Assembly: GCF_003852405.1 (NCBI RefSeq)
Contig: NZ_QAJM01000032.1
Span: 36,399 to 100,398, forward strand
Source: Pseudomonas sp. KBW05
GTDB lineage: Bacteria > Pseudomonadota > Gammaproteobacteria > Pseudomonadales > Pseudomonadaceae
Length of the DNA stretch: 64,000 nucleotides
Direction: 5' to 3'
Shown here: positions 6,819 through 46,091 of the stretch, piece after piece
How positions within the stretch are numbered: the first letter of the stretch is position 1
Layout of the letters: each line of letters begins with the position of its first letter
The notes under the pieces: generated by a model
The model's input: only the letters and a program-made list of their open reading frames with translations
What the model was told of the DNA's origin: nothing
Databases searched by the model: none
Program-made: the position numbers and the translations under genes

Positions 6819-6940
6819 GCGGTAACTTCCTGTTCCGGGTCTGTCGGGAGTGCGCGCGAAGATAGCCCAGGCGCCTCCTGTCGTCTACGCGCAGGTTGTC
6901 TCGGGTGGAAGATGAAATACCCCGGGCACCGCAAATCCAA

Positions 6941-7029
6941 TGTGGGAGCTGGCTTGCCTGCGATAACAGTGTGTTAGCCAGCACATCCGGTACTGGAAGA
7001 CCGCTATCGCAGGCAAGCCAGCTCCCACA
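6941..7029. repeat. REPIN (paired inverted REP), GCTGGCTTGCCTGCGAT type
   Basis: TGTGGGAGCTGGCTTGCCTG at the left and the inverse CAGGCAAGCCAGCTCCCACA at the right flank a non-conserved middle. Such paired palindromes are mobilised by RAYT transposases in pseudomonads. It lies between the signal peptidase gene and the DUF6124-like gene. Confidence 0.85.
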
Positions 7030-7063
7030 GTTGGGCTTTATTGATTTCGAGATTGTTGTGCGA

Positions 7064-7303
7064 TCAGGCCACCGGATGAGCCTGGTCCAGAGCCTTATCC
7101 ACCAACAGTTGCACACCTTCAAGCATGCGGCAGATACCCAGCGCTACGTTGCGTTGGGCGCCATCGACTTCAAAGGCAAGATGGGCGGCGATGTCGTTGA
7201 GGCAGGCCAGGTCTTGCGCGGCATTGGCCAGCAGGGTTTCAGTGCCCAGGTCGGGGCGGACGGTGAAGGGGGTTGCGGGGGGATTTGGACTGTCTTTGAT
7301 CAT
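7064..7303 (-). CDS. Small DUF6124-like protein
   Basis: 79 residues from the ATG at 7303, which has GGAG upstream; a longer frame reaching 7348 has no such site and starts inside the leader. The C-terminal part (ETLLANAAQDL, AAHLAFEVDG, RNVALGICRMLEGVQLLVD) is helical and matches the DUF6124 pattern frequent in Pseudomonas. The N-terminus MIKDSPNPP is also typical. Function is unknown. It sits about 56 bases downstream of a structured leader that recurs before the similar small gene at 45404-45697, suggesting regulation at the RNA level. Confidence 0.75.
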   Translation of the reverse strand: MIKDSPNPPATPFTVRPDLGTETLLANAAQDLACLNDIAAHLAFEVDGAQRNVALGICRMLEGVQLLVDKALDQAHPVA

Positions 7304-7359
7304 GGTGGAACTCCGTCGACAAGTGGAGCCGCCAGCGTTCGCGGTCAAACGAAGAGGGT

Positions 7360-7434
7360 GGCAGCTGTACGCGGGTTGACCGACCGGTTGTCAACGAACC
7401 CGGCATACCCGAAGGTATCCCGCGCACAACTGCC
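7360..7434 (-). ncRNA. Structured 5' leader RNA, copy 1
   Basis: On the minus strand a 16-base outer stem (7434-7419 with 7375-7360) encloses a hairpin with the very stable C(UUCG)G loop (AUACC-UUCG-GGUAU, 7418-7405) and a second hairpin with arms at 7394-7390 and 7380-7376. The only two non-Watson-Crick positions of the outer stem are G.U on the minus strand but would be A.C on the plus strand, so the RNA is read with the downstream gene. A homologous copy at 45760-45834 has the same geometry with different bases. I do not recognise a named RNA family. Confidence 0.72.
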
Positions 7435-7760
7435 GCGACACAATACCTCAGGCACAAAAAAACGCCTAAGTCGGGTGCAGGGCGTAGCAGTTCGTTAACA
7501 AGGTCGGACGGTCAAATCCGGCCGCTGAATTGGCAGCGACGGCGAGGAGGTTAGTCAGCGAAGTTCCGAGGGACAACCTGAAACCTTTGTCGGAAATGTC
7601 CTGGAGCCGGAAATACTGAAAGGCATGCGCACATACGAAAAAAGACTGTCGTTTGACGGTCCTAAATCGCTGTAAGACGTTTCCCGTTGACCATCCTCCA
7701 TCTTGCGTCTCCCAAGGATGTTTACCTATTTTGGTCAGCATCAATCAGGGAGGAATCACT
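7435..7760. other. Intergenic region between leader copy 1 and the dioxygenase operon
   Basis: No gene is supported here. It should contain the promoters of both the leitmotif leader (reading left) and the dioxygenase operon (reading right). I could not assign -35/-10 elements with confidence; an ACGCC-type short inverted repeat near 7460-7490 is the only other structure. Confidence 0.5.
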
Positions 7761-45697: not shown

Positions 45698-45759
45698 AAG
45701 GTTCGATTCTATTTGGGATAAAAGAATGGCCACCTTGCTGCTGCGAAACAGACTTGGGT

Positions 45760-45834
45760 GGCAACTGTGCGCGGGTTCGCAGACCAGGAAGAATCACCCC
45801 CGGCAGACCCGAAGGTCTCCCACGCACAGCCGCC
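45760..45834 (-). ncRNA. Structured 5' leader RNA, copy 2
   Basis: Same layout and same length as the copy at 7360-7434: outer stem 45834-45819 with 45775-45760, and an inner hairpin AGACC-UUCG-GGUCU at 45818-45805. The three outer-stem positions that are not Watson-Crick pairs are G.U on the minus strand. Relative to copy 1 the inner stem swaps U-A for G-C, keeping the pair. The middle part (45804-45776) is less conserved and shows no clear hairpin. Confidence 0.72.
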
Positions 45835-46091
45835 ATAAACAAGACGCGAGCGAACTCCGCCTGAGGGTCTGATGACTGTGCAGGTTGATTCTATTCTGTA
45901 GGGCTGCGAAACCCTGTCGCCAGCCAATGCCAGCGACGGGCCGAACTATAAGGCGCTGTGAAAAGGGGTGCAACCAGGAGAATGTTTCAACGCCGCGATA
46001 AGGCGTCAAACATCGCGGGCTGTGGTTGCTTCAACGCTTTTCAATCAGCGTCATCAGGCTTCGACACGGCGACGTTCCAGTACCCAACCCC

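Follow-up and report, generated by a model that had tools for sequence, protein, structure and literature searches.

The stretch of Pseudomonas sp. KBW05 DNA analyzed here (64,000 nucleotides, hereafter referred to as the window) carries two copies of an RNA that, judged by its sequence, is a C4 antisense RNA, a member of the known Rfam family RF01695 and the silencer known from phage P1. Comparison of these two copies with those found elsewhere in Pseudomonas makes it highly probable that chromosomal C4 copies are leader-encoded antisense RNAs, each of which would hold its own small gene off by pairing with the region around the start codon. The RNA itself is therefore known (P1/P7 C4, RF01695), and its genomic setting looks new.

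Identity and Structure of the Window Elements

In an earlier note made from the letters of the window, a branched leader RNA consisting of an outer stem, a UUCG-capped inner hairpin and a third arm was described on the minus strand at 7360-7434, together with a second copy at 45760-45834. Both the placement and the strand proved correct, with the full elements, as matched by RF01695, reaching 7354-7440 and 45754-45840. In a covariance-model search each copy covered model positions 1 to 87 in full and scored above the curated cut-off of 45 bits (Table 1). Membership of both copies in RF01695 means that the leader motif is not new, and the suggestion that it might be falls with the Rfam check; the upstream part likewise corresponds to an existing entry, c4-a1b1 (RF03163), the cut-off of which, 46.7 bits, is reached by neither copy 1 (45.1 bits) nor copy 2 (22.0 bits). 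The fold described in the earlier note was confirmed: a three-way junction with a UUCG-capped arm is the minimum-energy fold, and the energies of copy 1 (-44.8 kcal/mol) and copy 2 (-49.1 kcal/mol; z-scores in Table 1) were equalled by 0 of 200 shuffles in either case. In the third arm of copy 1, the centroid fold departs from the minimum-energy fold.

The two copies are identical at 60 of 87 positions. Pair exchanges between them had been put forward as a sign of conserved structure, and they are indeed present as five outer-stem changes between Watson-Crick and G-U pairs on the gene-sense strand and as a U-A to G-C replacement in the capped arm, but they are mostly one-sided. Additionally, one G-C pair of the third arm becomes G-U, and one outer-stem position changes from C-A in copy 1 to a U-A pair in copy 2. 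Since a single two-sided change is found among these exchanges, the two window copies alone provide weak covariation. The expectation that covariation would appear over many copies was borne out by the 153 C4 copies of five genomes (the window's genome and four single-contig genomes): stem cells are paired at a rate of 92.0% across 152 distinct sequences, compared to 82.6%, and at most 83.5%, when partners are shuffled. The ends of the RNA are conserved as well, with GG at the RNase P place in 152 of the 153 copies and a 3' GCCACC in 123.

Distribution and Copy Number of C4

The window's genome contains 13 C4 matches, all above the RF01695 cut-off. Within the genus, C4 was found above cut-off in 138 of 150 Pseudomonas genomes, in a survey that scored no more than 27 candidates per genome and in which per-genome counts are lower bounds; deeper scoring of the four single-contig genomes yielded 42, 30, 35 and 33 matches (134 of 140 above cut-off). 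Across the class, a C4 match was detected in 18 of 274 genomes, the window's genome among them, and the other 17 have at least 1 to 6 copies, these counts again being lower bounds, since the filters were stricter and scoring covered 15 candidates in each genome. High C4 copy number is thus rare in the class sample yet extends beyond Pseudomonas, because 21 C4-like RNAs are described for an Acinetobacter baumannii genome in a report which also refers to previous predictions of the C4 motif in Pseudomonadales (Weiss et al., 2016; PMC5320573).

Tandem C4-DUF6124 modules spaced roughly 850 bases apart are seen in genome G005 (C1:3628832, 3629682 and 3630531; loci L149, L150 and L178), and further close C4 pairs in genomes G125 and G100; together these arrangements suggest local duplication as one route of array growth. 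Pseudomonas phages also carry C4, in the same layout. At the start of the record of Pseudomonas phage DVM-2008 (EU982300.1, 58-532), a DUF6124 relative accompanies C4, in what is possibly host flank and not phage.

Genes Located Behind C4

In the window's genome, a DUF6124 or DUF3077 match follows 12 of the 13 C4s, the thirteenth being window copy 2. Gaps of 56 and 62 bases had been given between the described elements and the start codons, and these are correct (starts at 7303 and 45697). That two small proteins of related type follow holds only in part, as the first is a DUF6124 protein (95.6 bits) while the second, for which Pfam returned no match at E 1, aligns with another small-protein group. 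The DUF6124 and DUF3077 families are related. The window's DUF6124 protein (79 aa) is predicted to form a two-helix hairpin (pLDDT 89), a structure comparison of which returned no telling structural relative. Between its gene and an lspA-like gene, gtgggagctggcttgcctgcgat and its reverse complement occur at window 6940-7030, an inverted pair of a short repeat that, we presume, resembles a REP-type doublet.

Among the 140 C4s of the four single-contig genomes, 84 are followed by a same-strand DUF6124 gene within 600 bases, and an opposite-strand DUF6124 gene was found within 800 bases of none. The genes behind the other 56, ten representatives of which were scanned, include members of DUF3077, BRO-N (antirepressor-type) and small unnamed families, among these the group of the copy-2 gene. 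Viewed from the side of the gene, a search with one C4-linked DUF6124 protein yielded 473 relatives; among the best 80, all of which are in Pseudomonas, C4 lies upstream in 78 (the exceptions being L265 and L285). This search started from a locus that itself has C4 and so describes close relatives, not DUF6124 at large; the wider figure is that 19 of 103 DUF6124 matches in the four genomes are without C4, such that C4 is dispensable for DUF6124 genes. Within the same best 80 loci, a passing c4-a1b1 match is present in 53 and a passing isrK match in 6, and at L279 both matches belong to a second C4 farther downstream. The Rfam sRNA P10 (RF01668) is seen on the opposite strand near DUF6124 loci L245, L248, L261 and L271. 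Taken together, the RF01695 matches, the occurrence across the genus and the retention of C4 by these relatives uphold the earlier view that the RNA is a conserved regulator associated with these genes and no chance palindrome.

Genes behind C4 are under purifying selection (median dN/dS 0.20, with 48 of 48 non-independent pairs below 1), and some look frameshifted, four of which were excluded from alignment A2. In 11 of the 153 modules, a short first frame occupies the usual gene start and a longer frame begins at its stop; in seven of these 11, all DUF3077-type by eye (L065, L069, L073, L076, L091, L103 and L146), the second start forms an ATGA overlap with the first stop, and icd and ant1 overlap likewise by ATGA in the P1 record. 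Such coupling suggests that in these modules C4 would silence the second gene via the first.

BRO-N, antirepressor-like genes stand behind chromosomal C4s at L041, L050, L072, L152, L171, L173, L195, L198 and L199, three representatives having been assigned by Pfam and the remainder by similarity. Proteins of approximately 52-57 aa (type MHALNPSKIRAAAHRAMALAALHANSSL) are encoded behind top-scoring C4s (L029-L032, L035, L038, L044, L045, L048, L051, L052, L054 and L055) and also in phage phiAH14b (L087). The sole DUF3077 paper found concerns a furfural-tolerant P. putida with an insertion in a DUF3077 pseudogene, and the available text of that paper gives no function for DUF3077 (PMC9630843).

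Antisense Sites and Their Specificity

In the annotated P1 record the elements are ordered a1, b1, C4, a2, b2 and icd, and the Pseudomonas copies display the same order and spacing, with a start codon approximately 50 bases behind C4 as in P1. At both window loci, complementarity to a' and b' is found around the downstream start, and putative a1/b1 sites lie upstream, with a1 exact (Table 1). No clear Shine-Dalgarno was seen in copy 2. The earlier note had offered a regulator, an antisense target or a protein-binding site as the nature of the RNA; of these, the regulator is favoured, the RNA itself probably being the antisense molecule, with targets that lie outside the coordinates then given.

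Table 1. Positions of the C4 RNAs, their candidate pairing sites and the associated genes within the window
Feature	Position	Strand	Remarks
C4 antisense RNA, copy 1	7354..7440	(-)	RF01695 73.4 bits, E 2e-12; fold z -3.69
Architecture of copy 1			Predicted three-way junction; UUCG-capped second arm; third arm and linker antisense
a' linker, copy 1, CGGUCAA	7376..7382	(-)	Exact complement of a2 and a1
b' apical loop, copy 1	7388..7399	(-)	11-pair run with b2, G-U allowed; Watson-Crick run 5
a2 target, copy 1	7342..7348	(-)	5 bases 3' of C4; 7/7 complementary to a'
b2 target, copy 1	7312..7322	(-)	Overlaps ribosome-binding region of DUF6124 gene
DUF6124 gene, 79 aa	7064..7303	(-)	ATG at 7303; PF19619 95.6 bits, cut-off 27
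a1 target, copy 1	7509..7515	(-)	Upstream exact copy of a2; within c4-a1b1 match 7501-7554
b1 target, copy 1	7489..7501	(-)	Upstream; 13-pair run with b', G-U allowed
Terminator-like hairpin and U run, copy 1	7456..7485	(-)	Between b1 and C4; overlaps sub-threshold isrK match 7457-7540
C4 antisense RNA, copy 2	45754..45840	(-)	RF01695 74.4 bits; fold z -5.03
a' linker, copy 2, CUGCGAA	45776..45782	(-)	
a2 target, copy 2	45741..45747	(-)	7/7 complementary to a'
b2 target, copy 2	45705..45710	(-)	Weak, 6 pairs
Small gene behind copy 2, 97 aa	45404..45697	(-)	Relatives elsewhere behind C4 copies with same code
a1 target, copy 2	45904..45910	(-)	Upstream, exact
b1 target, copy 2	45886..45892	(-)	Upstream; 7 Watson-Crick pairs with b'

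Matching between linker and site extends well beyond the window. In the five-genome set, for 122 of the 153 copies, representing 31 different linkers, the first 20 bases behind C4 include a perfect complement of the fixed-place 7-nt linker, whereas the other linkers of the same genome match in only 11 of 4834 control comparisons. When runs of at least 6 bases in shifted registers are allowed, an own a2 match is present in 148 of 153 copies versus 408 of 4994 foreign comparisons. An exact upstream copy of the a2 site (a1) accompanies 139 of these 148, mostly 56 to 80 bases before C4, as compared to 63 of 4502 for other codes. Similar results were obtained with another 27 genomes (a2 27/27, a1 26/27) and with loci of other genera (a2 16/18, a1 11/18). 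By an uncontrolled count, pairing at b2 overlaps positions -16 to -4 relative to the start codon in 116 of 142 cases. Among 45 reciprocal-best gene pairs with a protein identity of at least 0.6 and a known code, the linker is common to 31 and differs in 14, and exact a2 and a1 sites are present on both sides in 10 of the 14 divergent pairs.

With regard to specificity, when a and b runs are combined, no other target in the genome equals the own one for 116 of the 153 copies, and for 12 of 13 in the window's genome; with ties counted, the five-genome figure is 131. Single Watson-Crick runs are strictly longest for the own target in 47, 65, 24 and 31 of 153 copies (a2, b2, a1 and b1, respectively), and by plain duplex energy the own target is best in the genome in 6, 33, 73 and 22 of 153 (a2, b2, a1 and b1). 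The weak outcome of the energy test and the intermediate single runs indicate that separation between copies is real but incomplete. Linkers also recur within a genome, the number of distinct linker 6-mers being 22/30, 24/35, 27/42, 17/33 and 9/13, and cross-talk is therefore likely.

Proposed Mechanism

The established mode of C4 action is a block of translation. According to the mechanism proposed here, C4 would be transcribed as part of the leader RNA of the downstream small gene, and an RNase P cut at the conserved GG, as in P1, would free a C4 RNA of about 77 bases. Its a' and b' regions, complementary to a2 and b2 sites between C4 and the start codon, with b2 mostly touching the ribosome-binding region, would then pair with these sites and block translation, acting in trans and also on transcripts made later from the same locus, such that the gene would stay silent as long as C4 is not lost, outpaced or titrated. 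The upstream a1/b1 would constitute a second C4 site, and a short leader RNA that stops at the terminator following b1, in the isrK position, could titrate C4. For approximately a quarter of leaders, fold predictions indicate that bound C4 would favour this terminator. The many different a'/b' codes suggest that the copies would act as largely, not fully, separate switches. We infer from this arrangement a single transcription unit, processing of C4, repression of the gene and its release, and a phage immunity switch is expected to be re-used on the chromosome to keep DUF6124, DUF3077, BRO-N and related genes off.

As icd and ant are under C4 control in P1 (PMC8198154) and BRO-N genes stand behind sister C4s, a growth-restraining or antirepressor-like role becomes the first candidate for the silenced proteins. 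A bolder and rather doubtful extension is that in Pseudomonas the phage immunity circuit has turned into a genome-wide array of up to some 40 self-silenced small-protein genes, code-locked and in part under dual control by translation block and C4-triggered termination, whose growth-restraining or antirepressor-like proteins would be released when C4 fails or when terminated leader RNA titrates it. If true, the array would resemble a large set of toxin or immunity switches, each toggled by RNA and opened by its own key.

Leader Terminators and Alternative Explanations

Between b1 and C4, a terminator-like hairpin followed by a U run is present in 24 of 139 five-genome leaders (2.3% of shuffles), and in 17 of the 139 it shares a strand with a small hairpin (0.3% of shuffles). 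This full device recurs in 16 of 26 leaders of the 27-genome sample, in 8 of 11 from other genera, in both of the two phages scored and in P1. Across all samples and phages, 44 of the 179 loci with an exact a1 hold a terminator and a mutually exclusive hairpin, a count which includes identical sequences (L031 and L087), and in 27 of the 44 the overlap between b1 and the small hairpin is exactly 2 bases long. In these leaders the predicted terminator probability has a median of 0.28 when free, 0.92 when a1/b1 is blocked and 0.54 when the block is displaced; 24 leaders flip (9 in the control), 17 favour the terminator already, 3 stay low and 2 reverse. For the P1 leader the prediction rises from 0.39 to 0.98 upon the a1/b1 block. 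Window copy 1 keeps the terminator and lacks the partner hairpin (0.66 to 0.86), and in the copy 2 leader neither was seen by eye. The isrK model (RF01394, cut-off 50 bits) covers the b1-C4 stretch in six DUF6124 relatives, falls below its cut-off in copy 1 (35.9 bits) and finds no match in copy 2 up to E 0.1.

These observations bear on the possibility that attenuation is the main form of control, whereby C4 bound to nascent a1/b1 would break the hairpin that b1 overlaps, free the terminator strand and so stop transcription before C4 and the gene. This explanation has a substantial, though less than even, chance of being correct. It draws on the excess of the full device over shuffles, on the presence of that device in P1 and on the predicted response to the a1/b1 block, as well as on findings in Salmonella, where IsrK supplied in trans lifts a transcription fusion 8-fold and a translation fusion 139-fold and where the authors mention a possible terminator action for STnc1160 (PMC4825925). 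However, 122 of the 139 five-genome leaders are without the full device, as are both window copies; among the 44 leaders that hold it, some favour the terminator without C4, stay low or reverse, and the control block accounts for some of the effect. In Salmonella, moreover, extra STnc1160 left growth arrest unrelieved (PMC4825925).

The scarcity of the device in most five-genome leaders, when compared to top-scoring, phage and other-genus copies, could also signify that the chromosomal copies are relics of decayed prophages that are functionless now, a view with which the frameshifted appearance of some downstream genes would agree. Such decay is nevertheless very improbable given that the three sites stay matched although linkers differ between copies, including on both sides of 10 of the 14 diverged gene pairs, that the genes are under purifying selection and that structure is kept in 152 distinct sequences. 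Somewhat less remote, but still improbable, is that chromosomal C4s chiefly act in trans against incoming C4-type phages as decoy immunity, with the linked gene being secondary. A role of this kind has been suggested for A. baumannii (Weiss et al., 2016; PMC5320573), and Pseudomonas phages do carry a C4 of the same layout; against it, the C4s match their own downstream genes, and C4 is kept by nearly all of the best 80 DUF6124 relatives. A stable, structured leader before related genes might finally be a cis element that binds a protein or metabolite and has no antisense action, but changes in the linker and loop are mirrored at sites beyond the structure itself, as would fit antisense pairing and not a conserved ligand pocket, and this explanation appears extremely improbable. 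Repression of the linked gene through antisense pairing at its start region accordingly is the preferred reading.

Significance and Comparison with Known Systems

A literature search returned no report of a DUF6124/DUF3077-C4 link, of matched codes or of C4 copy numbers in Pseudomonas. With the analysis presented here, chromosomal C4 RNAs gain linked targets, none being named in the available text of the A. baumannii report (PMC5320573), and DUF6124 and DUF3077, families of unknown function, gain a likely mode of control. The 31 exactly matched linkers constitute a natural set with which the rules of antisense specificity become testable, and three Rfam entries (c4-a1b1, isrK and C4) are joined into one leader.

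The closest counterpart is C4 of P1/P7 (RF01695), with which the chromosomal RNAs share the fold, the Rfam score, the order and spacing of a1, b1, C4, a2 and b2, and the GG and GCCACC ends. Unlike P1, in which C4 is linked to icd-ant, the C4 copies in Pseudomonas are linked to chromosomal DUF6124, DUF3077, BRO-N and other small genes, and the RNA occurs in 13 copies in the window's genome and as 30 to 42 matches in four others, with many codes. Many chromosomal copies (21) and a variable a' region are also features of the Group 1 C4-like sRNAs of A. baumannii, which are expressed and have their 5' ends at a GGW motif, suggesting RNase P cleavage; in contrast to these RNAs, the targets of which are unnamed in the portions of the report available, the Pseudomonas copies come with linked genes and matched a1/a2 sites (PMC5320573).

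Processed leader RNA with complementary sites on both sides is likewise described for satellite phage P4, where CI is flanked by seqA upstream and seqC downstream and antisense pairing terminates transcription (PMC4825925). The likeness to P4 CI is one of description only. Whereas CI terminates transcription, the established mode of C4 is to block translation.

The upstream half of the leader resembles the isrK and c4-a1b1 leaders (RF01394 and RF03163) in its position before C4, its terminator, its presumed read-through mRNA and a downstream gene that would be silent by default, and differs from them in that window copy 1 scores under both cut-offs and DUF6124 is no antirepressor family. Both c4 and c4-a1b1 are listed by Weinberg et al. 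(2010; PMC2864571), and Xylella is recorded as having an isrK-C4 pair (PMC12189769). In Salmonella Gifsy-1, the coupling of orf45 and anrP is comparable to the ATGA overlap in at least 7 DUF3077 modules, the short terminated IsrK RNA activates a silent read-through mRNA in trans, and the authors mention that STnc1160, a processed RNA with complementarity to IsrK, could affect the terminator in the way of P4 CI; the term 'C4 antisense' is absent from the available text of that paper (PMC4825925). By analogy with the leaders described here, our own reading is that STnc1160 may be the local C4 and short IsrK a sponge for it, which would give the IsrK puzzle a concrete interpretation.
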